Virus record (IMG/VR): IMGVR_UViG_3300006735_006281
Span: 1 to 55,476 of that record
Direction: 5' to 3' (one strand)
Length of the DNA stretch: 55,476 nt
From: a virus
Under the pieces are notes generated by a model. It was not told the DNA's origin, did no database searches, and worked only from the letters and a program-made list of their open reading frames with translations. The translations under genes and the position numbers were made by a program. Shown here one piece after another: positions 1 through 18,180 of the stretch (position 1 is the stretch's first letter; each line of letters begins with the position of its first letter).

Positions 1-1
1 A

Positions 2-706
2 ACAGAAAGAAAACTAAGAGCTACTTGGTCTCCTGAACTTGCACAAGACGTGTCTGCATTCCACAACATTGATGCTGAGGCTGAATTAACAGCTTTATTA
101 TCAGAACAAGTTGCGGCTGAGATCGATAGGGAAATCCTTAAAGACCTTAGAAATGGTGCGGCTTGGTCATTGAGATGGGACGCTAACGGATGGAGAAGAG
201 CTAACGCTGGTTCTGGTTACAATGCTTATACACAAAAAGATTGGAATCAAACGTTGATTACTTCTATCAACCAATTATCTGCTCAAATTCATAAATCAAC
301 ACTTAGAGGTGGTGCTAACTGGGTCGTTTGTTCGGCTGAAGCTTCTGCTATCTTTGATGATTTAGAGTACTTCCACGTTTCTAACGCGGCACCAGAGCAA
401 GATTCTTATAACATGGGTATTGAGAAGATTGGTTCTTTATCAGGTAGATATACTGTATATAGAGACCCTTACTTCCCAGCTGGAAAAGTGTTAGTAGGAC
501 ACAAAGGAAAATCATTACTAGATACTGGTTATGTTTACGCTCCTTATGTACCGTTACAACTTACACCAACTATGTATAACCCATTCAATTTTGCTCCTAT
601 CAAAGGAATCATGACCAGATACGCTAAGAAGATGGTTAACAACAGATTCTATGGTACGATCACGATTGATGGAATACAAACATTCCCAATTGGAGAATTG
701 AAGTAA
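2..706 (+). CDS. gp23: Major capsid protein, gp23-type (5' truncated by window edge)
   Basis: This is the C-terminal 234 residues of a T4-type major head protein, the shell-forming HK97-fold subunit. The frame is open from base 2 with no start, so the gene begins outside the window; a GTG at 50 lies inside the conserved block and is not the true start. The segment RKLRATWSPELAQD followed by IDAEAELTALLSEQ and EIDREIL is the hallmark block of T4-like gp23 proteins, and the end (RYAKKMVNNRFYGTI) also fits the family C-terminus. It is followed within 30 bases by a strong hairpin terminator and by a convergent minus-strand gene. Family assignment is very secure; the missing N-terminus includes the prohead-protease cleavage region, which cannot be judged here. 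Confidence 0.96.
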   Translation, partial: TERKLRATWSPELAQDVSAFHNIDAEAELTALLSEQVAAEIDREILKDLRNGAAWSLRWDANGWRRANAGSGYNAYTQKDWNQTLITSINQLSAQIHKSTLRGGANWVVCSAEASAIFDDLEYFHVSNAAPEQDSYNMGIEKIGSLSGRYTVYRDPYFPAGKVLVGHKGKSLLDTGYVYAPYVPLQLTPTMYNPFNFAPIKGIMTRYAKKMVNNRFYGTITIDGIQTFPIGELK

Positions 707-730
707 GCTTATCGCTACTCTTTAATATTA

Positions 731-760
731 AAAACCCCTCTTTTCGAGGGGTTTTTTTTT
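731..760. terminator. Bidirectional rho-independent terminator
   Basis: A perfect six-base-pair GC-rich stem (CCCCTC at 735-740, GAGGGG at 746-751) with a five-base loop is flanked by AAAA on the left and a run of nine T on the right. It can stop transcription of the capsid gene on the + strand and, because of the upstream A run, also that of the convergent cysteine-synthase-like gene, whose stop codon at 759-761 lies in the T tract. Confidence 0.9.
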
Positions 761-1670
761 ATAAACAACTTAGGTATCTATCTCCTCTATCACAGAGAAT
801 TGTTACGGCATCGGTTTTATCATTATCTCGTAACCATTCGAAAGCGGCTTTAACATTAGAACCCGCACTTATACCAACAAATAAACCGTGTTTAAGTGCC
901 AGATGTCTAGCAATTTTTTTTGCACAATTAGTATGGACGGTTCTAACCTCATCAACTGAATCTAAATCCACCAAAAATTTACTCCCATCACCAATTCCTT
1001 GTATCCCGTGTAAACCTGGTTCACCACCAGACATAACTGGACTTTCTTCTGGTTCTACTGCAACTATTTTTATATCTTCCCATTTTTCTTTTAGAAATTT
1101 ACGAGTACCCATCAGTGTACCTCCTGTGCCAGTACCTGCCACAAAAACTGCCGGAGAATCATATCTTCTATAAGTCCCTTTTATTTTAGGTAAAGACCAT
1201 TCCTCATAGATTTCTGGTCCAGTAGTTTGGTAATGTGCCTCAATATTTAAGGGATTGTGGAATTGATTACAATTAAACCACCCTTTAGCCTTACACAAAT
1301 CATCCCTCATTTCTATAGCACCATCAAAGTCTCCTTCCTCTACTTGTATTAATTCAGCCCCATAGTACTTAAACATTTGTTTACGTTCTTCTGACATATT
1401 AGATGGCATGATAATTTTCATCTTATAACCTCTTTCGGCAGCAATCATAGAAAAAGCAATACCACTATTACCTGAAGTTGCTTCACAAAGAGTGTCGCCT
1501 TTTTTAATTAATTTTTTTTCTTCAGCATTGTTAATAATATAGGTTGCCATACGGTCTTTTACAGAACCTGAAGGATTCATAAATTCTGCCTTACCCCATA
1601 CGGTTAGATTACCTAAAGTAATAGGTATAAGAGGGGTGTTTCCGGTGTAGTGAGATAGTTTTCTTGTCAT
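759..1670 (-). CDS. cysM: Cysteine synthase-like PLP enzyme (fold type II)
   Basis: A 303-residue protein of the O-acetylserine sulfhydrylase / cystathionine beta-synthase family, which makes cysteine (or a related amino acid) from an activated serine and a sulfur donor using pyridoxal phosphate. Visible motifs are NPSGSVKDR with the Schiff-base lysine K38, the substrate loop TSGNSG at 65-70, the glycine-rich phosphate-binding loop GTGTGGT near residue 180 and the SAGSN segment near 270. Length is close to a normal cytosolic CysK/CysM and all core motifs are intact, so it should be active. The SGSVKDR form of the lysine motif is closer to CysM/CBS than to classic CysK, but substrate cannot be fixed. 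It is the last gene of the long minus-strand block, separated by 44 bases from the virion gene before it. It is an auxiliary metabolic gene rather than a virion gene. Confidence 0.88.
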   Translation of the reverse strand: MTRKLSHYTGNTPLIPITLGNLTVWGKAEFMNPSGSVKDRMATYIINNAEEKKLIKKGDTLCEATSGNSGIAFSMIAAERGYKMKIIMPSNMSEERKQMFKYYGAELIQVEEGDFDGAIEMRDDLCKAKGWFNCNQFHNPLNIEAHYQTTGPEIYEEWSLPKIKGTYRRYDSPAVFVAGTGTGGTLMGTRKFLKEKWEDIKIVAVEPEESPVMSGGEPGLHGIQGIGDGSKFLVDLDSVDEVRTVHTNCAKKIARHLALKHGLFVGISAGSNVKAAFEWLRDNDKTDAVTILCDRGDRYLSCL

Positions 1671-1714
1671 AGGTTAATGATAAGAAAAAAAATGTATAAT
1701 GAAAATAAAATTAG

Positions 1715-3424
1715 TTATGTAATTATTCTCTTTTTCAGATTGTCAGGAAGTCCTTGATTTTTTACAATAAACCTTAATTTTTGGTCATAAGTCATGACCC
1801 TTTCATTGGAGGTTAATCGTAAATCAATATAATAGGTATTAGGTATCAACCAAGAAGTATCTATCACAAAATAGTTTCTTGTGGGAGTTCTATTTACGTC
1901 AGTATAGTCAATTACAGTATATTCACTTGTACCATCTTTTATATAAAGTCTATACTTAAGAGAGTCAATTACTTGTGTTTGATTTACTGTATATGGTACA
2001 CGAGCACTTACCATTACTTTACGATAATCTCCTCTTTTTATTGTTTCGTCATTTTTTATACCAGAAAGAGATAAACCATAAGAACGTGGTAAGTCTGTAT
2101 CAGTACCAATATTATAATACTGATTTTGTTCTCTAATTGTTATATAATTTGTTACATTATCAAGACTTTGAGTCACTCCATTTTTTGTTATTGTCATTCC
2201 TGACCAAACATCACTATATTGTACAAGTGGACAGGCACAGGTAGTAGGAACCGTTAAATCAATACAATATATTCCTTTAGTGACGTGTTGCACACTGGTA
2301 TATGGGGTATATTGTGAAGCATTTTGATGATCAGTATTAACCGAAAGAAATTGTTGATATACATCTCCATCAGAATCATAGACTACAGCCCCAGGAAGAT
2401 TATCCAAGTTGGTTGGTTCACTACCAACATTAACATATAAACATATTCTGTTTTGTTTTCCCATATAAAATTTTTCCCTATCATCTATTACTGTGTCGTA
2501 ATAAGTGGTCTCTATATATGGTTCAAAAAAAGTATTTGTATTTTCATTAAAAAAACCAACATATCTTTTTTCGTCTGTTTTAATAACTTCATAGAAAGGA
2601 TTAAAGGCAATTCCCATTCCATAATTTTTAACACCAGTTAAAAACTCTGCTGGGTCGGCACAACCTACTGTACCATAACATCCTTGTACAGAATCTGTAA
2701 CTAACCCTCCCGTGGGAGTTGTTGACCCATTTAATGCGGTTGTTGTACCAGTTAACATATCATTTATAACATCTGTTATGTCCATTTCAACATCCTCATT
2801 ACCCCTTGAAAAGTGTTGTGTAGCAACCATAGTAGTTGCCGTGGTGTTAGTCATTGCAGTATATGGGAATAATGCGTATCTTGAATATTCTGAAGATGTT
2901 AATGAACTACTACCGGTATACACACCACAAGTAGAAAGTGGAGTTTCATAAGTTCCTCCTGTCCATGGTAAGTTGGTTTTTCTAAAACACCAATTACTAA
3001 CCCCCTGACTACTAAATTTAGTTCCCGCATCCCAATCTTGTCCTAGTTTGAAAGCCAATAAATCGAATGAGTTTGCTCTAGACGCTGCATTAAATAAAGT
3101 ATCTTTTCCTAATAGGGCATCATTGTTAAAAATAGTGTTGGTCATTTTTAATGTGTGTACAGCTTTACTCTGTAACCCACTTGATGCACTAAACCCACTA
3201 AGGGTAATTCTTTTTTCATTTATTCTTGAAACTAACCCTGAAAGGTCAAAGTTAAAGATAAATCTACTATAATTAGTTCTTTCTACTGTAGTACCAGTAC
3301 CCGCACCATAAAATAACTCAACCACAGGGTTTAGTGCTCCGTTACTTAACGCTTCAGTGGATCCTGTTGAAAATCCCTTAACTAAAGTATTACTATCAGT
3401 AAAATATGTTTTATAAATTCCCAT
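1715..3424 (-). CDS. Putative virion structural protein, beta-rich (unrecognised)
   Basis: A 569-residue protein not confidently assigned to a named family. It is rich in Thr, Ser, Asn, Tyr and Gly with few charged residues, the composition of phage fibre or baseplate appendage proteins. The first 250 residues carry a pattern (SRFIFNFDLSGLV, then DVEMDITDVINDML) resembling DNRLRE-type beta-sandwich domains, in which a protein's edge strands pack a long jelly roll; the last 150 residues look like repeated immunoglobulin-like beta strands. There is no signal peptide or membrane segment. It lies directly downstream of the gp5-like hub gene with a 22-base gap that contains a TATTTATT element on the minus strand, so it probably has its own late promoter. 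A baseplate or tail-side structural role is inferred from context. Confidence 0.6.
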   Translation of the reverse strand: MGIYKTYFTDSNTLVKGFSTGSTEALSNGALNPVVELFYGAGTGTTVERTNYSRFIFNFDLSGLVSRINEKRITLSGFSASSGLQSKAVHTLKMTNTIFNNDALLGKDTLFNAASRANSFDLLAFKLGQDWDAGTKFSSQGVSNWCFRKTNLPWTGGTYETPLSTCGVYTGSSSLTSSEYSRYALFPYTAMTNTTATTMVATQHFSRGNEDVEMDITDVINDMLTGTTTALNGSTTPTGGLVTDSVQGCYGTVGCADPAEFLTGVKNYGMGIAFNPFYEVIKTDEKRYVGFFNENTNTFFEPYIETTYYDTVIDDREKFYMGKQNRICLYVNVGSEPTNLDNLPGAVVYDSDGDVYQQFLSVNTDHQNASQYTPYTSVQHVTKGIYCIDLTVPTTCACPLVQYSDVWSGMTITKNGVTQSLDNVTNYITIREQNQYYNIGTDTDLPRSYGLSLSGIKNDETIKRGDYRKVMVSARVPYTVNQTQVIDSLKYRLYIKDGTSEYTVIDYTDVNRTPTRNYFVIDTSWLIPNTYYIDLRLTSNERVMTYDQKLRFIVKNQGLPDNLKKRIIT

Positions 3425-3437
3425 AATTTCCTTTTAT

Positions 3438-3445
3438 AATAAATA
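3438..3445 (-). promoter_or_regulatory. Candidate late promoter element (TATTTATT)
   Basis: Read on the minus strand this is AAGTATTTATTATAAAAGG, ending 13 bases before the ATG of the 569-residue virion gene. The same extended sequence occurs before the first tail sheath gene on the other strand. Part of a recurrent element described in the findings. Confidence 0.5.
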
Positions 3446-3446
3446 C

Positions 3447-4460
3447 TTAATTAATTCTAATATTTTGATTTTTCAATTGTTCTAGATTAAACTTTAATAT
3501 CTCATCTATTTTACCCACACCAGTTATTGGTCCTTCTTCCGCTCCTTTATGTTCATGACCCTTAACATATTGTTTAATTAACTCTAAAAAATAAACTAAT
3601 TTATCTCCATATATTAGAGGTTCACTTTCCTGTGTTAAATACGTATCGATTGAGCCACTAGGTAGATCTTTTAATAATCCGTCATTAAAACCATTACTAG
3701 AAAGTTTATTATAACTAAGTCCTCGTCCCCCTTTACCTACGACATCCGGAGAACCTATTGAAGAATCGTAAGTAATTAAATGAATTTTATTTGAATAAAT
3801 ATTGGTTGCACTATTATTTTCATTAACCATTTTGATTTGAATACGCGGTGGGTTCTTTTTATTTAATTGTAGGTTTTTTTGATCCCTCCCAATATTCATG
3901 TTTGGTAAAAATGAACCCGCTCTTATGTTTATCTCTTGTTTTGTTAATATAATATCTGCGTTTTGTCTACCTTGTACACTAATATACTCTGGTTTTGGGT
4001 ATATTAAATGACCTTCTCTTCCATTACCTTTTTTATATGGATTATATGATTCAGGTTCATTACCAATACTTGATGATAAACCCATCGCTTCTCGTTTTTT
4101 CTGTTGATGTAAGTATTGTGGTTGACTAATTAAAGGTCCAATATAAGCCCTATTCAAACCAATGGTACTTTGATTTGACCCATTATCAGATGTCCACATA
4201 ATTATTCTCACTGCCTCCCCTATTTTAGGAACAACATTAAAAAATTTCGGTAGTAACGGGTAAGCCCACGGTAAATTATCAGGATTAACTTGTCCTCCAT
4301 CATCTCTATAATCCTTATCAAGATTCATAATTTCAACTTTAATTCTACCAGCACCGTCTGGGTCATTAGTACTTACAACCTCACCATAGTAATAGACATG
4401 AGCTCTTTCGAAATCTCCTTGAAATCCTCTTTTATTATATTTTCCGTAAGCTTCGTTCAT
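3447..4460 (-). CDS. gp5: Baseplate central spike/hub protein, gp5-like OB-fold
   Basis: A 337-residue protein whose first 120 residues match the OB-fold that begins T4 gp5 and VgrG spikes: AHVYYYGEVVSTNDPDGAGRIKV, then NLPWAYPLLP, then PKIGEAVRIIMW. This domain sits at the tip of the contractile tail under the hub and helps the spike dock. The middle contains a segment listing Asn, Ile and Lys residues, and the end has GHEHKG, a histidine-rich piece common in the C-terminal part of such spikes. The lysozyme domain of T4 gp5 and a long beta-helix are both absent, so another gene must provide cell-wall digestion and the needle. It is followed at a 22-base gap by a structural gene and preceded, almost touching, by a 61-residue coiled-coil gene. 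Assignment as gp5-like is good for the N-terminal half and inferred for the rest. Confidence 0.8.
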   Translation of the reverse strand: MNEAYGKYNKRGFQGDFERAHVYYYGEVVSTNDPDGAGRIKVEIMNLDKDYRDDGGQVNPDNLPWAYPLLPKFFNVVPKIGEAVRIIMWTSDNGSNQSTIGLNRAYIGPLISQPQYLHQQKKREAMGLSSSIGNEPESYNPYKKGNGREGHLIYPKPEYISVQGRQNADIILTKQEINIRAGSFLPNMNIGRDQKNLQLNKKNPPRIQIKMVNENNSATNIYSNKIHLITYDSSIGSPDVVGKGGRGLSYNKLSSNGFNDGLLKDLPSGSIDTYLTQESEPLIYGDKLVYFLELIKQYVKGHEHKGAEEGPITGVGKIDEILKFNLEQLKNQNIRIN

Positions 4461-4646
4461 TTATTTAGATAGTTGATTTCTTTTTCTTAATTCTTCTATA
4501 ATTAAATTATATTCAGATTCCACAGAGTCTAGATTTTTAAGTTTTTCCATTATTTCATTTTTAAGAGAAATATGTTTTTCTTTTAATGTATCCATTAACT
4601 CACTTAACACTTTATTACTTTTTTTATTTACTTCCATTTTTAACAT
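4461..4646 (-). CDS. Small coiled-coil protein, unknown
   Basis: A 61-residue, highly charged protein that is almost entirely predicted helix, with heptad-like spacing of Leu, Ile and Met (LSELMDTLKEK, LKNEIMEKLKNL). No family is recognised. The stop codon abuts the start codon of the gp5-like gene (4458-4460), and the start overlaps the end of the preceding gene by seven bases; a second ATG at 4635-4637 (starting MEVNKK) would remove that overlap and may be the true start. Its place inside the baseplate cluster suggests a tail assembly or scaffold helper, but that rests on position only. Confidence 0.6.
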   Translation of the reverse strand: MLKMEVNKKSNKVLSELMDTLKEKHISLKNEIMEKLKNLDSVESEYNLIIEELRKRNQLSK

Positions 4647-5125
4647 AATGCTGAAGAACCAAATACTGGAATAGTTGTTGTACCATAACCTACAAGAGGT
4701 CCACCCCCGTTGGCTCCTGAAACTACAACAGATTGTCCTGGTAGAGTACCTGTTGTTACTCTTAAATTTCTTGTTATTTCTCCCATATACTCTTCGGCTC
4801 TAATAACTTCTAACATTTCTCTTTGGGATATTGACCCGTCAGGACGAGGACCCACATCAGCACCTGCTTCTTCAAAACGAGAAATTACATTTCCTGCTAA
4901 TCTCTTAGCACTAACTCCACCTCTTTGATTTCCCAGTAAAGTTACCGGAGGAGGTATAGGTGGAGTCGGTATTGAGTCTAAATTGGCTAATGCCAGTATT
5001 GCTTCTAATACACTTAAAGCTACTCCAAAGTTTATCCCACCTTCATCTTCTTCTGTTTGAAAAGCTCCAGTGTTAGTTCCTCTTATCCCCAATTCTGAGG
5101 GTTTATATGTCATTCCACATCCCAT
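4640..5125 (-). CDS. Putative baseplate-region protein with proline-rich segment
   Basis: A 161-residue protein of unknown family. Visible features are a short hydrophobic helix (FGVALSVLEAILALANL, around residues 33-50), immediately followed by a proline-rich stretch PTPPIPPPV, then a charged helix region (ISQREMLEVIRAEEYMGEITRNL) and a Gly/Thr/Val-rich C-terminal tail. The start ATG overlaps the stop of the 497-residue gene upstream by one base, the signature of translational coupling. It is most likely a virion or tail assembly protein because it is embedded between a large structural gene and the gp5-like hub gene. Confidence 0.6.
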   Translation of the reverse strand: MGCGMTYKPSELGIRGTNTGAFQTEEDEGGINFGVALSVLEAILALANLDSIPTPPIPPPVTLLGNQRGGVSAKRLAGNVISRFEEAGADVGPRPDGSISQREMLEVIRAEEYMGEITRNLRVTTGTLPGQSVVVSGANGGGPLVGYGTTTIPVFGSSALC

Positions 5126-6618
5126 TATAAAATTCTTTTTGTTCTTTGTGCTATTTTAGCCTTTCCTCTTAAAAGAGTGGCTTTTATCGAAGCAGTCCAA
5201 ATGTCTAACTTCTCTTTTAATATTTTAATCGCAATGTCCGCCATTAATCTTTGTACAAAATAACTTAAGTGTTGGAAAAAATCCTTTACTATTAGTTCAT
5301 ATAATATTTTAACGATTTCTCTAATAGAACCCCTTAACTCACCAAAAATTTCTAACCTTTCGGGTCCTATGTCTATTTTTTTAGGTTGACCAGCTCCTTG
5401 ATCTTCTAATTCACTATCATCAACTAACGCATAACCCACTAATAATAACATAACAAGTGTCTGAGGAGTAAGTGCTTGTTTTAAGAAAACATTTTTTAAG
5501 TGATCTAATATAACTTTAATTATATCATTTTTTATTGTTGCATCATCCGTGTCTACCGGTACTGAAGATACATTAGCAATTGATCCATTAATTGCTAAAT
5601 CAGTTAATTGGTTAATCATGTTACCAATTGCATTAACTCTTTGTTGTTGAGTTAGTGTAACGTCTGCGTAAAGTGAACTATATTGATTTACGAGTATCAT
5701 TGCTTCTTCTTGATCAACTTTAGTCACCAAAGTTCCACAATTTAGATTTAATACAACGGCACCTTCAAGAGCATTTTTTGCATTATATCTAAATAACTCC
5801 ATTTCATTTCTATTATATTTGAAAAAGGCTATTTCTTCATTTACAACTTCACCACAATCTGTATCCGCCATTCTATTAGCGGTAGCGTTAATTTGTTGAA
5901 GTTCAACAAGAGTCTCGTAACTCTTACCTGATTTTTTATCGAATATTCCTGTTAGTAAATTAACAATTTCATTTACGATTGCTTCAACAGGGAATAATTT
6001 GAGGTTATCAAAGTAATCATCAATAAAATTCTCTACAGTTTTATTTGTGTAATCTATACCAATTTCAAATATAAAACCACCACCAGTATAAGTGACTTTA
6101 GCTATTTCTTTACCAGCTATAGTCATACCTTTCGCTTGGTTTAATTCATCGACTGCCTCCATTATTTTTCTATTAAAATCGTCTACGTCTCCTAATACTT
6201 GATTTGCATATGGTGCGGCAATACCCCCCATTCCTTGGACTGTCTTAAGAAAATCAAAAATATCTAAATTGATTAAATTAATTTCTAGACCTCCTCCACC
6301 TAACCAAGCGGGAAATCCAGAATTTAATACACTTTCACCACATTTAGCCTTTAGACCATCCCTTAAACTATTACGAACTTGTTGGTCTATTTCATTTAAT
6401 TTTGTTCCCAGTAAATTTTTTAGTATATCCTCGAGAGATTTTCCTCCGGCAAGCATAGAAATAATATCCATTAGAAATGGAATCAGGTCTTTTTTTCTTG
6501 TTCCAAAACCATCGACCCCTAATTGTCCTGCTAAATCTAAAGCTTGTGACTGATTAATTACTTTAAGAGTACTTAATATTTTCTTTAAGGTGCCTTTTCT
6601 TTTACTTACGTCAGCCAT
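5125..6618 (-). CDS. Putative baseplate/tail structural protein, helical (unrecognised)
   Basis: A 497-residue mostly helical protein with no family I can name. The N-terminus is basic (SKRKGTLKKILSTLKV), there are amphipathic helices throughout, a glycine-rich AWLGGGGL near residue 110, and a strongly hydrophobic segment LVMLLLVGYALV near residue 395 that could be a buried helix or a membrane-active region. The end is again basic (KATLLRGKAKIAQRTKRIL). No signal peptide. It is translationally coupled to the next gene (one-base overlap) and begins 12 bases after the end of the preceding 124-residue gene. Since it sits in the gp5-like cluster, a baseplate or tail-tip role such as delivery of a hydrophobic helix is a reasonable guess only. 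Confidence 0.6.
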   Translation of the reverse strand: MADVSKRKGTLKKILSTLKVINQSQALDLAGQLGVDGFGTRKKDLIPFLMDIISMLAGGKSLEDILKNLLGTKLNEIDQQVRNSLRDGLKAKCGESVLNSGFPAWLGGGGLEINLINLDIFDFLKTVQGMGGIAAPYANQVLGDVDDFNRKIMEAVDELNQAKGMTIAGKEIAKVTYTGGGFIFEIGIDYTNKTVENFIDDYFDNLKLFPVEAIVNEIVNLLTGIFDKKSGKSYETLVELQQINATANRMADTDCGEVVNEEIAFFKYNRNEMELFRYNAKNALEGAVVLNLNCGTLVTKVDQEEAMILVNQYSSLYADVTLTQQQRVNAIGNMINQLTDLAINGSIANVSSVPVDTDDATIKNDIIKVILDHLKNVFLKQALTPQTLVMLLLVGYALVDDSELEDQGAGQPKKIDIGPERLEIFGELRGSIREIVKILYELIVKDFFQHLSYFVQRLMADIAIKILKEKLDIWTASIKATLLRGKAKIAQRTKRIL

Positions 6619-10300: not shown

Positions 10301-10966
10301 TTACATTCCGTTTAATAATTCAAACACCGCATCAATTGCTTCGTGTCTATGATTATCGGTCAATAAAGCCTTATAAACAAATTTAGAAGAAGATATCTTA
10401 GCAACTTCATGAATTGCGGAATAATTTCTATCTTTAAGATCAATTTGTTGGTTATCCCCGGTAAATATCATTGTTGAATTTTTACCTAATCTACTTAGTA
10501 CCATTGATAGTTGCGACTTCGTTAAATTCTGGAACTCATCAATTATACACACGCTATCCTCAAAAGTTCTACCTCTAAAATGAGCTAATGATACCAATTC
10601 AATTTGCTCCTCACTCTCCATTTTTTGTAGAACAAGAGGTTTATTATAAACTTTACGCATATTAGATCTGATAGGAACTAACCAAGGTTCCATCTTTTCT
10701 CTTTCTGAACCAGGAAGAAAACCATTATCTTCAGTAGAAACAGTAGGTCTAGTTATAATGATTTTATTACATTGTCTTTTGAAAAATTGATCTAAAGCTA
10801 TTTGTACTGCTAATAACGTTTTACCACTTCCAGGTTTACCAACAACAAAATTAAAAGGATGTTTTAGTATTTCAGTTTTAGCCTTTTTTTGTTCTGGGGA
10901 TAATGAAAGTGAAAATCTTATTGCTCCTTTTGGGGGAGTTTTATCTTTATTATTTCTTGTTGCCAT
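10301..10966 (-). CDS. phoH: PhoH-like P-loop ATPase
   Basis: A 221-residue PhoH family protein. Walker A is GKPGSGKT at residues 43-50 and Walker B is CIIDEFQNL near 140, followed by the GDNQQID sensor motif. These are the signature features of PhoH, an ATPase related to superfamily 1 helicases and common in marine T4-like phages, where it is used as a marker gene. Its function is uncertain; roles in phosphate-starvation response or RNA metabolism have been proposed. The start ATG overlaps the end of the epimerase gene by 17 bases, so it is translated as part of the sugar operon. Confidence 0.93.
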   Translation of the reverse strand: MATRNNKDKTPPKGAIRFSLSLSPEQKKAKTEILKHPFNFVVGKPGSGKTLLAVQIALDQFFKRQCNKIIITRPTVSTEDNGFLPGSEREKMEPWLVPIRSNMRKVYNKPLVLQKMESEEQIELVSLAHFRGRTFEDSVCIIDEFQNLTKSQLSMVLSRLGKNSTMIFTGDNQQIDLKDRNYSAIHEVAKISSSKFVYKALLTDNHRHEAIDAVFELLNGM

Positions 10967-11972
10967 CTATAAATTTTTTTATTGTGTTTATTATTATCTC
11001 TGAGGGTTTTCCATTTTTCATATAAAAATCTTTTATTCTTTCACTTTTAGTATGGACTAACCACTCTATAGGGTTAATCAGGTTTTTATATCTTACTCCA
11101 TAGTCCGCTGACTCAACTTCTGTCCACTCAATATTATCTCTCATAACTATACATTTCTTTCTAAAAAAGGGACATGTCTTCATTAGACCACCTGAGTCTG
11201 TAATTATAAATCCACAACTTGATAAAGCATCTATCATTTCACTATATTTTGCTGGGGGTTTAACGGTAATATTAGTTGGAAGGACGATATCGTTATTTTC
11301 GATAAATGATTTGGTACTGTGGTGCAAGTAAAAATCAATAGGTTCATTGTATTTTTCACAAAAAGAAAGAATTTTAGAAAAACTCTTAATATTTAGATTT
11401 TCTCTTCTATGAATTGTCATAATGGCAGGACCCATAAAATCGATCTCTTTATCATAATATCTATTAAGTAATTCATATTCTAAATCACCACAAACTACTT
11501 CATTGTTAAAGTAATCTTGTATTTTTCCTGTTTCTTTAGGAGTGAATTGAATCTCTGATGTTAGGTCGGCCACTATCCTATTTAGTTCTTCTGGTACTTT
11601 TATGTCATTACATCTTAACCCGGCTTCTATGTGGGCAAAAGGTATTTTTTGTTTATAACAAACTAATGAAGAAGATAATGTACTATTTGTATCGCCATAT
11701 ATTAAAACAAAATCAGGACTTTCTTTTTTTAGTATTTCACTAAATTTTTCCATTGTTTCTGTAATAAAAGTGACTTCATCATTATTAGATGTTCTTAAGT
11801 CATGGTCTATAACTAAAGAAAACTCCTGTATAAAATAATCAGAAACATTTTCACTATAGTGTTGATTGGTGTCAACTATTACATGATTGATATTATTTTC
11901 ATTACAAAAATCAAAAATAGGTTTAATCTTGACGTACTGGGGTCTCGTCCCTATGATGCTCAGTATTTTCAT
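10950..11972 (-). CDS. wbpI: UDP-N-acetylhexosamine 2-epimerase (WbpI/WecB family)
   Basis: A 340-residue non-hydrolysing UDP-sugar 2-epimerase. Motifs are the N-terminal GTRPQYVKIKP, HIEAGLR and ELNRIVADLTSEI in the first half and the HRREN loop plus ITDSGG in the second half, as in WecB and WbpI. These enzymes invert C2 of UDP-GlcNAc (WecB) or of UDP-GlcNAc(3NAc)A (WbpI), giving the manno form. Because the other four genes of the WbpA-B-E-D series lie next to it in order, WbpI-type specificity is inferred rather than ManNAc synthesis. The start codon lies inside the end of the dehydrogenase gene (50 bases overlap), in another frame. Confidence 0.85.
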   Translation of the reverse strand: MKILSIIGTRPQYVKIKPIFDFCNENNINHVIVDTNQHYSENVSDYFIQEFSLVIDHDLRTSNNDEVTFITETMEKFSEILKKESPDFVLIYGDTNSTLSSSLVCYKQKIPFAHIEAGLRCNDIKVPEELNRIVADLTSEIQFTPKETGKIQDYFNNEVVCGDLEYELLNRYYDKEIDFMGPAIMTIHRRENLNIKSFSKILSFCEKYNEPIDFYLHHSTKSFIENNDIVLPTNITVKPPAKYSEMIDALSSCGFIITDSGGLMKTCPFFRKKCIVMRDNIEWTEVESADYGVRYKNLINPIEWLVHTKSERIKDFYMKNGKPSEIIINTIKKFIDGNKK

Positions 11973-12768
11973 TTTTTCTCATTTTGTTTCTTTCACTTAT
12001 TGTGGCACCTAATACTTCACATATACTTCCATTTTCTAACATTGTTCCATATAGTGCTTGGGTATCTTTAGGAAAACACGCCCCTCCATAACTTAGTTTA
12101 CCATCCGGTCCTGGTACAGTGGTGTGCATCGGATTTATCCACCCATTCTTCAACATAAGACTAATAACTAAAGAATAGTCCGAATCTAACTTTTTACACA
12201 AATCAAACATTTCATTAAAGAATTGTACTTTAACTGCATAGAAGGAGTTCGCGAATATTTTCATAAGTTCAGATTCAGTAGAGGTACTGGTTGATATTTC
12301 TGCGTCGGGAAAACTTTCCTTATATAAACTTTTTAATTCACCTAATTGTTCTTCATTCTCTGTATATCCTAAAACAATATGTTTTTGATTGGCAAAATCT
12401 TCTTCACTTGTTCTTGCTGTTAAAAACTCGGGATTGTGTACAATGTTTAATTCACTATAGAGATAGTGTAAATTCATTATTGTTTTTGGTTGAGTGGTGC
12501 TTTTTATAACAATAGTACCCTCATAATTTGAGTTTTGTAGTTTTTCTAAAGTTTCATGTAAAGCACTATAGTCATATCCTCTTAACTCGGTTGAAAATAA
12601 AGTAGGTAGACATAAAAACATTATATCAGAGTCAAGAGTTTCTTCAAATGAATTAAAACTCTTAAACTTATCGTATGACCTAACGGTGTATTGTTTATTT
12701 GTAAACCATTTGGCAACGGCGTTTCCAACAAACCCCATTCCTATAACACCTATAATTTCTTTTTTCAT
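11923..12768 (-). CDS. wbpA: UDP-sugar 6-dehydrogenase (WbpA-like), C-terminally short
   Basis: A 281-residue member of the UDP-glucose/GDP-mannose dehydrogenase family, which oxidises the C6 hydroxyl of a nucleotide sugar to a carboxylate with two NAD. Visible are the Rossmann GVIGMGFVG at 7-15, IVIKSTTQP, VHNPEFLTA, the central KIFANSFYAVKVQFFNE helix and the catalytic cysteine C231 in GACFPKDT. The normal enzyme is about 390-430 residues; the C-terminal UDP-binding domain (roughly 100+ residues) is missing here and the protein ends soon after the catalytic loop. I start it at 12768 rather than at an upstream in-frame ATG (12849), because the upstream 27 residues are encoded by the end of the acetyltransferase gene and the Rossmann fold begins at MKKEIIGVIG; that leaves a one-base gap. 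Confidence 0.8.
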   Translation of the reverse strand: MKKEIIGVIGMGFVGNAVAKWFTNKQYTVRSYDKFKSFNSFEETLDSDIMFLCLPTLFSTELRGYDYSALHETLEKLQNSNYEGTIVIKSTTQPKTIMNLHYLYSELNIVHNPEFLTARTSEEDFANQKHIVLGYTENEEQLGELKSLYKESFPDAEISTSTSTESELMKIFANSFYAVKVQFFNEMFDLCKKLDSDYSLVISLMLKNGWINPMHTTVPGPDGKLSYGGACFPKDTQALYGTMLENGSICEVLGATISERNKMRKNENTEHHRDETPVRQD

Positions 12769-12769
12769 A

Positions 12770-13174
12770 TTACTTAAATTTTTTAGCTGGAACCCCAACC
12801 CAAGTCTCATCGTTAGGTACATTTTTTGTGACCACAGAACCAGCACCAATTTTACATTTATTTCCTAATGTTATATTTGGTAATATTGTGGAGTTTGCAC
12901 CTATTGACGCACCTTCTTTAACAACTGTAGGTGGTTCATCCCTCCAAGCACCGTGTGAAGGAGGATTTTTATCATTTGTAAAAACAGTGTGCGGCCCAAC
13001 AAAAACATTATCCTCAATAATAATATTTTCAGGTATAAAAGAACCACATCCGATTCTACAATTTTTCCCTATTTTAACTTTATGTCCTACTTCAACAAAG
13101 GCACCAATTCTAGTTCCTTCTCCTATTTCCGCACTATCATAAATGTTACTATTTTTATGTATGTAAGTTTCCAT
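12770..13174 (-). CDS. wbpD: Left-handed beta-helix N-acetyltransferase (WbpD/WlbB-like)
   Basis: A 134-residue hexapeptide-repeat acyltransferase. Repeats such as SAEIGEGTRIGAF, VKIGKNCRIG, VKEGASIGANSTILPNITLGNKCKIGAGSVVTKNVP form the left-handed parallel beta-helix, and the segment GPHTVFTNDKNP is the loop typical of WbpD/WlbB, which acetylates the 3-amino group of UDP-GlcNAc(3NH2)A using acetyl-CoA. The family is usually about 190 residues, so this is a compact version lacking some N-terminal coils. It sits between the WbpB-like and WbpA-like genes with spacings of four and one bases, which fits its position in the pathway. The likely active form is a trimer in the cytosol. Confidence 0.82.
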   Translation of the reverse strand: METYIHKNSNIYDSAEIGEGTRIGAFVEVGHKVKIGKNCRIGCGSFIPENIIIEDNVFVGPHTVFTNDKNPPSHGAWRDEPPTVVKEGASIGANSTILPNITLGNKCKIGAGSVVTKNVPNDETWVGVPAKKFK

Positions 13175-13178
13175 ATTT

Positions 13179-14102
13179 CTAAATGTAAAAAGTTTGACCG
13201 TCTAATTTAACTTCTTTTTGTCTTAAACCGTCGATTAATTTTATTGTAGGTTCAACATCTTCTAGGGTAAACCCATTCCCTTTTAATATTTCTTCATAAC
13301 TTACTTTATGTAAGTCTGTAAACCCTGTTGAGAATTCTAGTTCTTCCCCATCTATCTTAATTGATCTAAAAGGTTTCCAGTCGTCCCATGGAAGGTCCTC
13401 TTTCATTATACTTAGATTATAGGTTACCTTGGCCTTCTCAAGGTGTAAAACACCCTTACATCTCTTCCCTGTGGTTTCTACCTTATAAGCAAGAACCTTA
13501 CCAAATATCCAAATTAACATATCAAAAAAGTGTACCCCAATGTTTGTTACAACTCCACCAGATTTATCTGAGTCACCTTTCCACGAATAATCATACCAAA
13601 CACCTCTTGGTGTTATGTAATCTAATGTAACTTCATGTGGACGTAATAAGTCATTACTATTTTGGTATTTTTCTTTGAGTTGTTTAATTAATGGGTGATG
13701 TCTAAGTTGGAGTATATTATATATTTTTTTTCCAGTTTCTTTTTCTAATCCTTTTAATGATTGTAGATGTTTGTCTCTTAGAACTAATGGTTTTTCACAT
13801 ATAACATCGCATCCATTTCTAAGAGAAAGTCTTATATGTGCATCGTGTAAATAATTAGGACTACATATTGATACAAAATCAATACTGTCTTTATTCCTAT
13901 AGAGGTGTCGGTCAAATCTCTCAGATTCTCTAAAATAAGATGCGTAAGGAAAATATTTATCAATATACCCAACTCCATCATAAGGGTCGAGAAGTGCCAC
14001 CAAATCATTATTAGTGTCTTTAATTGCTTCAACATGACGAGGGGCAATATATCCCCCGGCACCTATAAGTGCAAATCTTTTTTTATTATTGTTTGAACTC
14101 AT
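13179..14102 (-). CDS. wbpB: UDP-GlcNAcA 3-dehydrogenase (WbpB/WlbA-like)
   Basis: A 307-residue Gfo/Idh/MocA family oxidoreductase. The Rossmann loop is GAGGYIAPRH (14-23), followed by ICSPNYLH and the signature EKP at 103-105. Downstream, LRHHPLIKQLK, DYITPRGVWYDYSWKGD and NIGVHFFDMLIWIFG match the conserved blocks of WlbA/WbpB, which oxidise the C3 hydroxyl of UDP-GlcNAcA to a ketone, in a cycle in which the NADH is reoxidised by 2-oxoglutarate. The match is closer than to generic family members. The start codon lies 17 bases inside the end of the aminotransferase gene, so expression of the two is coupled as expected for consecutive steps. Confidence 0.87.
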   Translation of the reverse strand: MSSNNNKKRFALIGAGGYIAPRHVEAIKDTNNDLVALLDPYDGVGYIDKYFPYASYFRESERFDRHLYRNKDSIDFVSICSPNYLHDAHIRLSLRNGCDVICEKPLVLRDKHLQSLKGLEKETGKKIYNILQLRHHPLIKQLKEKYQNSNDLLRPHEVTLDYITPRGVWYDYSWKGDSDKSGGVVTNIGVHFFDMLIWIFGKVLAYKVETTGKRCKGVLHLEKAKVTYNLSIMKEDLPWDDWKPFRSIKIDGEELEFSTGFTDLHKVSYEEILKGNGFTLEDVEPTIKLIDGLRQKEVKLDGQTFYI

Positions 14103-15204
14103 TTATACAAGTTGTTATCGTTTTTAATTCATTTTCACTAAGGTGTGGAGAGATTGGTATATGTAAAACCTCTTCACATCTTTTTTCGCATTCTGGTAAA
14201 GATTGGTCTCCAAAAATCTCTTGGTATATTGGTTGTTTATGTAGCGGAATTGGCCAATAAACAAAGGTTTGTATACCATTATCAGTTAGGTGTTTTTGAA
14301 GTTCATCTCTCCCATTTACTATTATAGTATACAAATACCAACTATGATTGTCAAGAGTATCAGTAGGATACGGTAGTGTAACCATAGGATTTTTAATGTT
14401 TTCAAAGTAGTACTCTGCGTTTTTTTGTCTTTTATTTAACCACTCATCTGACGCACCATTTAGTAGTACCGTTAAAAATCTGGCTTGTAACGCATCCAAT
14501 CTTAAATTACCACCAACCATTTCATGGTAATATCTTTTCTTAGAACCATGTGCCCTAATCATTTTTATTTTATTATATGTGTCTTTATCATCTGTTATAA
14601 CAATTCCACCATCACCTAAACAACCTAATGTTTTTGCAGGAAAAAAACTGAAAGAAGCTGCCAAGGATCTCGTACCTGAGTGTCCACCTTCTGGGTAATA
14701 AGACCCAAAAGACTCGGCGGCATCTTCAAAAAGAATCGCATTTTTAGAGTCACATAATTTTTTTAATTTTTCTATTGAGGGTGTTTCCCCAAATAGATGT
14801 ACAAACATAACGGCTTTTGTATTCTTAGTCCAAGATTTTTGAAATTGTTCTACTGAAGGGTGAAAAGACCCGGGAGCGTTATCAACAAATATAGGGTTTA
14901 GACCTGCAACTAATATCGCTTCTGAACTGGCAATAAAAGTATATGAAGGTACTAATACATCTGAACCTTTTGGTAAATCTAAAGACATTAAAATGGCCAA
15001 TAGACCATCAGTCCCACTAGAAACACCAATGGCATATTTTGAACCTGTGTACTTAGCAAATTCTTTTTCAAAACGACTAACGGCATCTCCATTTATAAAA
15101 ATTCCATCATCTAGAGATTTATCTAATTCATTGTGTAGATAGTCCCTATAAGGAGATAAAAGTTTAGGATAGTCAAAAAATTTAATAGTTTCTTTTGTTT
15201 GCAT
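14086..15204 (-). CDS. wbpE: DegT/DnrJ/EryC1 sugar aminotransferase (WbpE-like)
   Basis: A 372-residue PLP-dependent nucleotide-sugar aminotransferase. The N-terminus has INGDAVSRFEKEFAKYTG, then the PLP-phosphate site SSGTDGLLAIL, HLFGETPSIEKL with the acidic DAAESFGS (the Asp that binds the PLP nitrogen), and the catalytic lysine in FFPAKTLGCLGDGG. The end carries WPIPLHKQPIY and RCEEVLHIPI, standard for the family. WbpE/WlbC transfers an amino group from glutamate to the 3-keto sugar made by WbpB, so pairing with the adjacent WbpB-like gene is the main reason for this specificity; the fold alone would also fit a 4-aminotransferase. Confidence 0.86.
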   Translation of the reverse strand: MQTKETIKFFDYPKLLSPYRDYLHNELDKSLDDGIFINGDAVSRFEKEFAKYTGSKYAIGVSSGTDGLLAILMSLDLPKGSDVLVPSYTFIASSEAILVAGLNPIFVDNAPGSFHPSVEQFQKSWTKNTKAVMFVHLFGETPSIEKLKKLCDSKNAILFEDAAESFGSYYPEGGHSGTRSLAASFSFFPAKTLGCLGDGGIVITDDKDTYNKIKMIRAHGSKKRYYHEMVGGNLRLDALQARFLTVLLNGASDEWLNKRQKNAEYYFENIKNPMVTLPYPTDTLDNHSWYLYTIIVNGRDELQKHLTDNGIQTFVYWPIPLHKQPIYQEIFGDQSLPECEKRCEEVLHIPISPHLSENELKTITTCINEFKQ

Positions 15205-16315
15205 ATTTTAAGTAAAAGCTTTTAGGTACTAAATTTAATTTATATAAGACATAAAAGAAAGGTCTCAGACGTTCAAATAATCTTTTGTATGTTGGGTAGT
15301 CGGTATAATCTTTCTTTTCATTAGACATCATTTTATTAAACTCTTCATCTGTTAAGTCTAATCTTTTTTTCATTTCAACAACTAAACTCTCATCCATTTC
15401 TTTTTCTTCACTCATTTTAATTAGTGCTAGTTTTCTAGTCATTTGTCCTGACCTAATTAAAGCAGAGTACTCACACTTTCTTAAATCGATACCAAATTTA
15501 CTAGGGAGATAAAAGTTATTTACGAAATAAGCCGAACGATTTTCCATGTGATGACCACCGTACCATTCCCACCCATATTCGTTGTGTAAGAATTTTTTAA
15601 TTTGTTCTTTATCATAATCCATATAATAAAGAGGTCTAATTCTTTTAATTCTTTTTACTAATAGTTGTCTCATCCATGGCCAAAAATCCATCAAAGGTAA
15701 ACTAGTTAATTTAGTTTTACCAAATAATTTATGTATAGACCTTACGTATTTAGCATCTTGATAAAACCATCCTTGAGGTGAGATCCCCTCGGTTCTAAAT
15801 GAGTGACCATTCCATATCCATTTTATATTGTGCTCTTCAGCGGCCTTATAAAGAGTTGCGCCAATTGCTAAATCAGTCCCAGAATCTAAATCAGGAACCG
15901 AAGCTAAAAAGAATGAACGAACTAAATCGTTGTACTCGTGATTATCAACCACGTGAGTGTAAAGGTCAACATCTAAAGAAGTAATCATTCTTTCTATATT
16001 TTCTACAGCTATTTTAGAATTCCAAGTGTTGTCAAAATGAACGGCTAGAGGACGTAATCCCGATTTAACGGCTAAGTGTAATAGAAACGATGAATCGCAA
16101 CCACCACTAATACCAACAACTACATCGTAGTTATTTCCCTTCCCATCTTTTTTCATTTTGGTAATTAAATCATTTAGTATTTTACCACCTTCTTCACCAA
16201 CAGGGTATTCCTTATTTAATTCAACATCTCTTTCACAATAGTTACACACCCCTTTCTCATTAAATTCAATATGAGGGATGCTTTCATCGTAGATACAGTT
16301 ATTACATATTTTCAT
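15182..16315 (-). CDS. wbpG: N-acetyl sugar amidotransferase (WbpG/PseA family)
   Basis: A 377-residue PP-loop ATPase. It begins with a zinc-ribbon-like pair (C4, C7, C24, C27) and has the ATP-binding SGGCDS loop at 70-75 followed by LRPLAVHFDNTWNS, which are hallmarks of the WbpG/PseA group that converts an N-acetyl on a sugar into an N-acetamidino group, using ammonia and ATP. The family needs ammonia from the partner HisH/HisF-type subunits, which are the next two genes upstream, so this trio forms one amidotransferase complex. Its start overlaps the HisF-like gene by 14 bases and its stop overlaps the aminotransferase start by 23. Confidence 0.88.
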   Translation of the reverse strand: MKICNNCIYDESIPHIEFNEKGVCNYCERDVELNKEYPVGEEGGKILNDLITKMKKDGKGNNYDVVVGISGGCDSSFLLHLAVKSGLRPLAVHFDNTWNSKIAVENIERMITSLDVDLYTHVVDNHEYNDLVRSFFLASVPDLDSGTDLAIGATLYKAAEEHNIKWIWNGHSFRTEGISPQGWFYQDAKYVRSIHKLFGKTKLTSLPLMDFWPWMRQLLVKRIKRIRPLYYMDYDKEQIKKFLHNEYGWEWYGGHHMENRSAYFVNNFYLPSKFGIDLRKCEYSALIRSGQMTRKLALIKMSEEKEMDESLVVEMKKRLDLTDEEFNKMMSNEKKDYTDYPTYKRLFERLRPFFYVLYKLNLVPKSFYLKYANKRNY

Positions 16316-17063
16316 AATTTTTTATAATTTTTTCAATCTCATTTTGTTTCGGGAATCTAATTAGTACCCCCATATTTTTTTTAGAGTATACACACATACT
16401 CCCTAATGCCACACCAGAACTACCATTCCAAATAGAGTCTTTAATATCTTCTAGTTTACCGACTCCACCACAGGATATTACTGGAAGAGAAGTTCTTTGA
16501 CAAACTTCTTGAATTAACTCATCATCCATACCTTCCCAAGTCCCATCCTTATCTACAGAATATAATAAAATTTCACCAACACCTAATTTTTCTAACGACT
16601 CAATATACTCTGTAGGAGATAAATTTAAGGTTTTTTTATTAGAATGTCTATAAATTTTATGTTTCCCCCAAAAATTCTTTTTTACATCAACCGAAGCTAC
16701 TATACTTTGACTTCCGAAAAGTTTTATGGCTTCCTTTATAACCTGTGGGTTTTCAAATAGAAGAGTATTAACGATAATCTTTTCTATCCCCAACTGAAAT
16801 AGTTTTCTCATGTCTTCTATTGTTCTTACACTACCCCCATAACATAATGGCATGAAACATTCTCTTGTGATCTTACGTATAACATCAAAAGGAATATCTT
16901 TTTTAGATATATCAATTAGGACTAACTCATCCACTTCCTTCCCGTTAAATATTTTTATTGCGTTTACTGCATCACCAACATAAGAAGGATTATCGAACTT
17001 AGTGGTTTTAACCAAAGAACCATCTTTGAGTAATAAACAGGGCATAATTCTAGGTCTTAACAT
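16302..17063 (-). CDS. hisF: HisF-like cyclase subunit of the sugar amidotransferase (HisF2 type)
   Basis: A 253-residue (beta/alpha)8 barrel homologous to imidazole glycerol phosphate synthase subunit HisF. Alignment by eye with Thermotoga HisF gives MLRPRIMPCLLLKDG for MLAKRIIACLDVKDG: the general acid/base Asp at position 11 is Leu, while the second catalytic Asp (here D126, in ASVDVKK) is present. The phosphate loops (CGGVGKLED, ALGSMCVYS) are partly kept. Loss of Asp11 argues against histidine synthesis and for the HisF2 role in channelling ammonia to WbpG. Neighbours support this: HisH on one side (7-base overlap), WbpG on the other. No other histidine gene is in the window. Confidence 0.86.
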   Translation of the reverse strand: MLRPRIMPCLLLKDGSLVKTTKFDNPSYVGDAVNAIKIFNGKEVDELVLIDISKKDIPFDVIRKITRECFMPLCYGGSVRTIEDMRKLFQLGIEKIIVNTLLFENPQVIKEAIKLFGSQSIVASVDVKKNFWGKHKIYRHSNKKTLNLSPTEYIESLEKLGVGEILLYSVDKDGTWEGMDDELIQEVCQRTSLPVISCGGVGKLEDIKDSIWNGSSGVALGSMCVYSKKNMGVLIRFPKQNEIEKIIKNYENM

Positions 17064-17656
17064 GTTATAAATTTTTCCATTAATTTCATTCCATATTTAT
17101 GGCTTTTTTCAGGATGAAATTGTACACCAAAAATATTATCTTTAGAAACTCCAGATGTAAATTTAATACCATAGTCTGTCTCCAACATAATGTCTTCTTT
17201 GTTTTTACACTCAACATAATAAGAATGAACAAAGTAAAAACGAGAATCTTCTTCACATAAATCTGATTTTATTGGTTTTACCTCATTCCATCCCATATGT
17301 GGAACTTTCAACTTGGTGTCATTAAAGTTGAATTTTTTACATTCTCCTTTTATGAATCCCAATCCTGCTCGGTTTCCCTCTTCGCTCTTTTCCATTAGTA
17401 ATTGCATCCCAAGACAAATCCCTAATATCGGTTTGCGTTTTTCTATTACGTGATGTTGTAATTCCCCTAACCACCCGGAATGAATTATATTACTCATTCC
17501 ATTATCAAAAGACCCAACTCCTGGTAAAATAATTTTATCAATTAATTTTAGTTCTTCTGGAGATTTAATAATTTTAGTTTTATGATATCCTAAAAAATTT
17601 ATCATCGATTCAACAGAACCAACATTACCCATTCCGTAGTCAACTATACCTATCAT
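17057..17656 (-). CDS. hisH: HisH-like glutamine amidotransferase (class I)
   Basis: A 199-residue class I glutaminase that releases ammonia from glutamine. The oxyanion strand LPGVGSF, the catalytic nucleophile C81 in LGICLGMQLL and the His-Glu pair in FHPEKS (H181, E183) are all intact, so it should be active. It is the usual length for HisH. In the Pseudomonas O5 cluster the equivalent pair HisH2/HisF2 supplies ammonia to WbpG for acetamidine formation, and the same three genes are consecutive here. The four-base overlap with the preceding acetyltransferase is ATGA-like, showing translational coupling. Confidence 0.9.
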   Translation of the reverse strand: MIGIVDYGMGNVGSVESMINFLGYHKTKIIKSPEELKLIDKIILPGVGSFDNGMSNIIHSGWLGELQHHVIEKRKPILGICLGMQLLMEKSEEGNRAGLGFIKGECKKFNFNDTKLKVPHMGWNEVKPIKSDLCEEDSRFYFVHSYYVECKNKEDIMLETDYGIKFTSGVSKDNIFGVQFHPEKSHKYGMKLMEKFITC

Positions 17657-18180
17657 TTTCTTATTCTTATTAATTTAGCAGGGACTCCTGCGATTACACT
17701 ATATTCTGGAAAATCTTTAGTTACCACCGCACCTGCACCAACTTGAGTTCCTTTTTTAATTGTAACACCTGGCATAATTACCGAGTTGACTCCTAGATCA
17801 GCATCGTCTTCAATAACGACTGGTTTGAATTCTAATTCTTCGTGTAGTATTGGTTTTTTTATATTTGTGTCTTTGTGGTAACTTGTTAATATTTTAACGC
17901 CTGGACCTATACCTATATTTTTATCTATTTTAATACCACCAGCAGAATGAAAAAAACACTGTTGTCCAATCCATGTTCCCTCTTCTATTATCATTTCATT
18001 TTTATAGTAACCTTTTAGAATTGTATTGTGTCCGATATAGACGTTATCATGAATAGAAATATTTTCAGGATGGAATAGAAGGACTCCTTCCTCTAGGACA
18101 GTTTTTTTACCTAGTTTTTTAAGGTGTTCTGTGTTGTAATAACCTTTTTCATTTAATTTACCGTTTCCGTGACTCTCCAT
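17653..18180 (-). CDS. Hexapeptide-repeat acyltransferase (LbH)
   Basis: A 175-residue left-handed beta-helix acyltransferase. Repeats such as [28 protein letters not shown] and the end [33 protein letters not shown] are diagnostic of the nodulation/maltose/WbbJ type acetyltransferases, which O- or N-acetylate sugars from acetyl-CoA. The catalytic His loop appears as TSYHKDTN. It is a different gene from the 134-residue WbpD-like protein and has no obvious step in that pathway, so it may act on another sugar or on the finished glycan. The start overlaps the end of the SDR gene by 28 bases in another frame. Confidence 0.78.

Follow-up and report, generated by a model that had tools for sequence, protein, structure and literature searches.

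The gene on the minus strand at positions 759–1670 of the window, the whole virus record of 55,476 bases analysed here, which also holds DNA polymerase and DNA helicase matches, encodes a 303-residue protein of the cysteine synthase family (CysK/CysM-like, fold-type II PLP enzymes) and is a real, maintained viral gene. This conclusion follows from its relatives in IMG/VR, its occurrence in 12 types of gene neighbourhood, a dN/dS of about 0.1 and the existence of gene-less sister contigs. On balance, it is probably an auxiliary metabolic gene through which the phage makes a functional cysteine synthase, a member of an exchanged lineage whose acceptor is likely not to be O-acetylserine. Following the catalytic cycle of the family, PLP would be bound to K38 in an internal aldimine, α-aminoacrylate would arise from an activated serine and the addition of sulfide would yield L-cysteine. 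The acceptor would be O-phosphoserine (or free serine) and not O-acetylserine from CysE, and cysteine, hence the supply of protein, Fe–S and thiols, would be topped up during virion production. The lineage has been swapped several times between phages and Bacteroidota-type bacteria. As a wider and tentative proposal, which may well prove wrong, a CysE-independent lineage (O-phosphoserine or serine as acceptor, with a distinct D-G-S-K loop) would form a movable cassette in hundreds of viral contigs, those of T4-like phages included, and would be the sole enzyme dedicated to cysteine synthesis in some Flavobacteriales, which may owe part of their copies to phages.

The open reading frame starts with ATG and contains no internal stop codon. 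Its product matches the Pfam PALP domain (PF00291) over residues 6–294 (6.4e-66) and the top NCBIfam model is cysKM (TIGR01136; 296.5 bits), in agreement with the original prediction of a full-length CysK/CysM-group PLP enzyme, which gave no strand. The protein belongs to the cysteine synthase family, yet it falls below the curated cut-offs for cysKM (344.15 bits), cysK (TIGR01139; 278.7 bits, cut-off 350.95), cysM (TIGR01138; 242.6 bits, cut-off 394.2) and CBS (TIGR01137; 185.6 bits, cut-off 510.25); its score with PRK11761 CysM is 248.5 bits. Two cellular genes of the same clade that were scanned with TIGR01136 are also under the cut-off (299.3 and 309.1 bits). A threonine synthase-type enzyme, named in the original prediction as the contrary outcome, is rejected by the HMM scores, which reach at most 59.3 bits for threonine synthase models among the 25 families listed of 36. 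The full-length PALP domain is accompanied by the PLP lysine, the TSGN loop and a serine near the pyridine nitrogen, roles that we presume for these residues. K38 aligns with K42 of Escherichia coli CysK (Met counted) and is kept in 95 of 97 phage rows of the alignment (94 from IMG/VR, the window, L209 and L087), the remaining two being gapped, and T65-S66-G67-N68, Q136-F137 and S268 are kept in all 97; the lysine and the substrate loops are thus intact, as had been claimed. Across 81 viral sequences including the window, 94 of the 303 positions show at least 98% conservation. The AlphaFold2 model (pLDDT 85.1, pTM 0.86) has one loop, residues 212–227, with a pLDDT below 50.

The clade to which the protein belongs carries the signature HGIQGIGDG[SG][KR], and the segment H221-G-I-Q-G-I-G-D-G-S-K231 is invariant in the 97 phage rows. 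Among 38 cellular rows of the clade, 14 of which are second copies, the Asp is present in all 38, the next variable position is Ser in 27 and Gly in 11, and the last is Lys in 35 and Arg in three. Fifty more distantly related cellular rows all show gaps in the S-K columns, and 19 of them have Asp at 228. E. coli CysK has A-G-F where the phage protein has D-G-S-K-F, at a position that we take to lie in the loop helping to bind the CysE tail. The status of S-K depends on the aligner: MAFFT renders it as an insertion, and HMMER pairs the Ser with Phe against the Staphylococcus aureus and Thermotoga maritima enzymes. The terminal motif of the phage protein is C-D-R-G; about half of the cellular rows have S-D-R-A.

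Gene content in the cellular carriers bears on the identity of the acceptor. CysE was called where TIGR01172 scored more than 100 bits, a limit fixed once the scores were known; the curated cut-off of 210.65 bits was reached by none of 46 bacterial genomes, CysK genomes included, and by eight of 14 named controls. By this call CysE is missing from all 18 cellular carriers that lack canonical CysK (best 76.1 bits), a count that does not represent 18 independent losses, as the carriers are partly close relatives. Both carriers that also have canonical CysK (G008 and G012) possess CysE, and their cysE adjoins the canonical cysK. CysE was likewise called in 19 of 20 genomes of the order of carrier G001 with a CysK-like gene (the miss being G041), and in 18 of the 19 it lies within about 1 kb of that gene. 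These 20 were drawn from 26 genomes of the order whose best gene scored 209–280 bits with the A1 profile. Six of the 26 (G072, G079, G083, G088, G092 and G097) were not used; each measures about 0.6 Mb, a size shared by three that were used (G055, G064 and G102). None of six genomes of the order with only CBS-like hits has CysE by the same call, and missing CysE is therefore not peculiar to carriers of the clade gene. No CysE match over the cut-off was found in nine large phage records. In carriers G004 and G009, weak matches to CysE (L210 and L212) lie beside ORFs that read by eye as glycosyltransferase- or sulfotransferase-like and were for this reason taken for polysaccharide acetyltransferases, not CysE.

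O-Phosphoserine is made by SerC. A SerC match is present in 14 of the 18 carriers (14 of 15 Bacteroidota and none of three Neomarinimicrobiota), three being over the cut-off and the rest at 365–443 bits, and Cys/Met-metabolism enzymes (PF01053) were found in all 12 cellular carriers tested. Owing to these two counts, genome incompleteness is unlikely to be the sole cause of the lack of CysE. All cellular carriers except G015 (19 of 20) have another member of the family, mostly CBS/CapA-like. The 324-residue member in G001 and G003 is nearest to CapA cysteate synthase (463 and 460 bits; cut-off 600) and scores 413 and 421 bits against CBS (cut-off 510). In three carriers (G008, G012 and G017) one gene exceeds the cysKM cut-off. 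Canonical CysK was counted for G008 and G012: L177 passes the cysK cut-off (423 bits) and L178 pairs with L177 in the tree. The G017 gene, L179 (347 bits), was counted as CBS-like because its tree partner L180 passes the CBS cut-off. PAPS_reduct is over its cut-off in six of 12 cellular carriers and in none of five large phage records (19.7 bits in G021). Given the CBS/CapA-like members and the PF01053 enzymes, reverse transsulfuration could supply the carriers with cysteine and the clade enzyme could act otherwise.

Since the clade enzyme occurs without a supplier of O-acetylserine, gene content suggests that the acceptor may be O-phosphoserine or free serine rather than CysE-derived O-acetylserine. 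The available text of one study links the choice of O-phosphoserine to R210 of OASS-B, matched to G230 or Ala231 of OASS-A (PMC3805590). All 97 phage rows have G227 and D228 at the R210 position and thus lack the Arg expected of an O-phosphoserine sulfhydrylase; judged from these residues, G227 and the acidic D228 would argue against O-phosphoserine, unless the nearby K231 compensates. Campylobacter CysM is described, in the available text, as using O-acetylserine and not O-phosphoserine (PMC9855970).

An ordinary O-acetylserine sulfhydrylase, for which the host CysE would supply O-acetylserine and the phage enzyme would add capacity, as is assumed for other viral cysK genes, is possible, if on the unlikely side. 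It would account for cysKM and cysK being the best models, for the S. aureus CysK O-acetylserine sulfhydrylase structures being the closest solved folds to the model (TM about 0.89) and for the retention of Q136-F137 and Q224, all found in E. coli CysK. It fits poorly with the contrast in CysE between the 18 carriers without canonical CysK and the 20 genomes with a CysK-like gene, and with D-G-S-K replacing A-G-F in the loop that would help to bind the CysE tail. Gene content in the cellular carriers thus argues against plain O-acetylserine, while being compatible with it, and the phage's own host, whichever it is, may possess CysE. If the acceptor is not O-acetylserine, the 'cysK' annotations of viral genes in this lineage name a pathway that does not apply, and cysteine synthesis in infected Bacteroidota could escape the feedback control of CysE; if it is, the lineage is a well documented new group of a known auxiliary gene.

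We regard as improbable a related β-replacement or β-elimination role, such as the breakdown of cysteine to sulfide, the removal of sulfide, the formation of S-sulfocysteine from thiosulfate or that of another β-substituted alanine. The family is catalytically broad, with O-ureidoserine synthase and β-cyanoalanine synthase among the solved neighbours of the phage protein, and the second family member in most cellular carriers would also agree with such a role, as would the position of nine Bacteroidota homologues among molybdenum-hydroxylase-like genes. As far as the available texts go, the phage cysK of Kieft et al. is placed under sulfide production from cysteine degradation (PMC12713726), and E. 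coli CysM, with which the C-D-R-G end motif is shared, is a good user of thiosulfate (PMC12895370). The protein scores only 56.4 bits with the Cds1 desulfhydrase model and 150.3 bits with cysteate synthase, however, against 296.5 bits with cysKM, and its 221–231 loop is CysK-like, not CysM-like.

The surroundings of the gene are those of a phage. It is convergent with a T4-type gp23, the two gene ends being 52 bp apart. The gp23 major capsid protein gene (positions 2–706, plus strand; PF07068, 8.8e-56; phrog_138, 1.5e-45) is truncated by the start of the window, and its complete homologues in L002–L004 have 637–652 residues; the original prediction had rightly placed the gene beside a capsid gene. 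A terminator-like hairpin at 730–756 (11 pairs, loop of 5; computed on the plus strand) is preceded by an A run and followed by a T run and is thus able to serve both convergent genes. Four terminator-like sites were found in positions 1–6000 against 2.6 expected from shuffles, a count that is not significant alone; the CCCCTC/GAGGGG arms of the hairpin recur at the same position in L002–L005 and in the gene-less L251 and L252. Upstream by 44 bp, a 569-residue gene (1715–3424, minus strand), the product of which has no Pfam or PHROG match, is possibly co-transcribed with the cysteine synthase gene; this order is the same in L002–L005, and the 569-residue gene also lies upstream of a truncated cysteine synthase gene in L067. 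The same minus-strand block contains a baseplate hub/tail lysozyme-like gene (3447–4460, minus strand; phrog_430, 3e-7, residues 23–71 only). The gene had been assigned to a late-type block, with which the gene content (gp23 and the partial hub/lysozyme match) agrees; TATAAATA, the T4 late-promoter word, is not enriched (14 found, 14.35 expected). Sigma-70-like promoters in positions 1–6000 are not enriched either (25 found, 25.6 expected).

Shine–Dalgarno four-mers precede four of 43 ORFs in the window (1.6 expected; the 43 include spurious ORFs), none of 60 in five window-like loci (1.2), none of 24 in carrier cells (0.5), three of 120 in the cyclophilin group of loci described below (6.1), five of 79 in another phage group (2.0) and 12 of 30 in an E. 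coli stretch (5.2). The pattern would weakly suit a Bacteroidota host; the window itself is slightly above expectation. Elsewhere in the window, a phage-borne nucleotide-sugar cluster (10950–19124, minus strand) comprises a UDP-GlcNAc 2-epimerase, a Gfo/Idh/MocA oxidoreductase, a DegT/DnrJ aminotransferase, a weak PP-loop ATPase match (below cut-off), a His_biosynth protein and an NAD epimerase, and presumably resembles the WbpG/HisH/HisF amidino-sugar pathways. A 1302-residue ORF (25341–29249, plus strand), which has no PHROG match, lies where the minus-strand and plus-strand blocks diverge.

One scan with the protein yielded 105 IMG/VR relatives, the best 80 of which were fetched (58–84% identity), and just two peptide patterns, with a profile from a 20-row alignment, gave 309 tblastn-confirmed IMG/VR relatives (best 80 listed). 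Matches were also found in 77 phage records, the best being an uncultured phage of 634,780 bases (60% identity); the other 59 among the best 60 of the 77 are at most 44% identical, and some of the matching records, being in many fragments, look bacterial. Viral records of 210–298 kb carry the gene as well. The window gene and its nearest relative, L002, differ by a dN of 0.109 and a dS of 1.051 (dN/dS about 0.1), and 51 of 600 random viral pairs with usable synonymous divergence have a median dN/dS of 0.10 and a maximum of 0.26; the gene is under purifying selection. If loci are grouped whenever they have a gene family in common no more than two genes away, the 81 loci (the window and L002–L081) fall into 12 neighbourhood types, six of which are single loci. 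The type of the window has six members (the window, L002–L005 and L067). In a large group of 32 loci (around L009–L041), a cyclophilin, a DHH-type protein, a lysozyme and a glutamine synthetase, families named from one member each, occur in 28, 26, 22 and 15 members, respectively; DUF192 also recurs beside the cysteine synthase gene in this group. Further types adjoin replication or recombination-type genes.

A search with the upstream 569-residue gene returned eight loci: L250, on the contig of L005; five distant ones (29–31%); and L251 and L252, which are near-identical here. The last two retain gp23 (92%) and the upstream gene (79%) together with the hairpin, but the cysteine synthase gene is replaced by 75 bp; neither of the two contigs, which are short (10.6 and 15.2 kb), has a copy of it at another position. 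These and the window-type loci form a presence/absence pair at one site, compatible with gain or loss, and the gene is a self-contained cassette that has a tail-block gene on one side and the gp23 terminator on the other. Its presence between viral flanks in viral genomes, purifying selection and cellular relatives together mark it as an auxiliary metabolic gene of phages.

That the protein descends from a cysteine synthase but has a structural or regulatory, non-catalytic role is very unlikely. In the lineage of the window the gene does belong to a block of structural genes, moonlighting of CysK is known and the CdiA-CT/CysK complex 5j43 is among the structural matches, but practically all phage rows retain the catalytic residues and the 12 neighbourhood types imply no fixed tie to structural genes. 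Contamination by host DNA or misassembly, to which the relatives in bacterial chromosomes might point, was rejected as practically negligible on conserved synteny and the gene-less site, both phage flanks being common to L002–L005 and the upstream flank to L067, with sister phages having the locus without the gene, the 634,780-base and 210–298 kb records carrying it and a GC content (0.37) near that of the window (0.33).

One scan of genome contigs gave 149 relatives, the best 80 of which were kept. They include Bacteroidota (L082–L086, L089–L099, L101 and L104–L106) and Neomarinimicrobiota (L100, L102, L103, L107 and L142). The nearest chromosomal homologues among those kept are from Bacteroidota/Flavobacteriales (L082–L086 and L106; 65–70% identity), presumably marine from their isolate codes, and the neighbours of L082 include RecG- and UvrC-like genes; other Bacteroidota and Neomarinimicrobiota homologues are 51–59% identical. 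In nine Bacteroidota loci (L089, L093, L095, L096, L098, L099, L101, L104 and L105) the homologue is flanked by a xanthine-dehydrogenase-like large-subunit gene and a putative FAD-subunit gene, ahead of a hisC-like aminotransferase gene (families searched in L089). In Neomarinimicrobiota L102, L103, L107 and L142 it follows pabB-like and class IV aminotransferase-like genes and precedes a putative DNA ligase gene (searched in L102). L087, binned as a Nitrosopelagicus MAG, and L088, from a Flavobacteriaceae MAG, have genes in common with phage loci and look like mis-binned phage contigs; such mis-binning could mislead inferences of transfer.

The phylogeny with CysK, CysM and CBS-like rows that had been proposed was run as a tree without threonine synthases; the protein falls into a separate clade with Bacteroidota and Neomarinimicrobiota genes. 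In the 108-row tree this clade has 79 rows (SH-aLRT 98), namely 53 phage rows, 25 cellular rows (one a duplicate) and L087, and excludes E. coli CysK, E. coli CysM and the CysK of Lactococcus phage P087. A single clade for all 54 phage rows is rejected (p-AU 8.47e-07): L090/L097 are the partners of the 634-kb phage, and the main phage group stands apart from L079/L080 and from L078. As the phage rows are not monophyletic, the gene has crossed repeatedly between phages and cells. This quick tree placed the Flavobacteriales genes (L082–L086 and L106) within the main group of phages. A more careful tree of fewer rows unites L082 and L083 with phage L061 (95/92) and splits the cells in two. The likelihood was nevertheless better when the 50 main phage rows were constrained to group together (p-AU 0.622), so that phage-to-host transfer is only one possible direction for these six. 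A one-locus presence/absence pair combined with repeated exchange with cells makes a clean case of auxiliary gene movement.

Phage cysteine synthase genes are already known, and the present lineage is widespread. The original description of the gene as uncommon does not stand in view of the 309 IMG/VR relatives and of the viral cysK genes in print, going by the available texts (PMC13037316, PMC8725595 and PMC10134843). One of these suggests a thaumarchaeal origin of viral cysK (PMC8725595); L087 shows a phage contig apparently hidden in a thaumarchaeal bin and may, by analogy, bear on that proposal. The titles and opening abstracts of the literature searched contain no description of the clade or of its missing CysE; as far as they show, the delimitation of the clade with its signature is new, as are the site without the gene and the distribution of CysE.

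The phage protein resembles CysK (E. coli CysK, S. aureus 8t2c and T. maritima 1o58) in its fold, PLP lysine, TSGN loop, QF motif and HxIQGIG loop, but scores 278.7 bits with a cysK model on which E. coli CysK reaches 485.8 bits; relative to the latter it has C-D-R-G for P-S-S-G and D-G-S-K-F for A-G-F, and it lies in a separate clade. With E. coli CysM it shares the end motif C-D-R-G-[DE]-R-Y, whereas its HGIQGIG loop is of the CysK type (gapped in CysM) and it has no equivalent of Arg210. The P087 gene, annotated 'putative cysteine synthase', and other INPHARED phage cysK/cysM genes are also phage-borne members of the family, but P087 CysK, which is 39% identical, exceeds the cysK cut-off with 417.7 bits and does not belong to the clade. 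A CysE-independent function may be held in common, as far as gene content goes, with the O-phosphoserine sulfhydrylases (Aeropyrum OPSS and Mycobacterium tuberculosis CysM); the phage protein has no Arg at the OASS-B R210 position, which is tied to the choice of O-phosphoserine. The chromosomal homologues of Bacteroidota and Neomarinimicrobiota share its clade and signature at 51–70% identity, and differ in being cellular, in having S-D-R-A for C-D-R-G in about half of the rows and in having Gly for Ser in 11 of 38.
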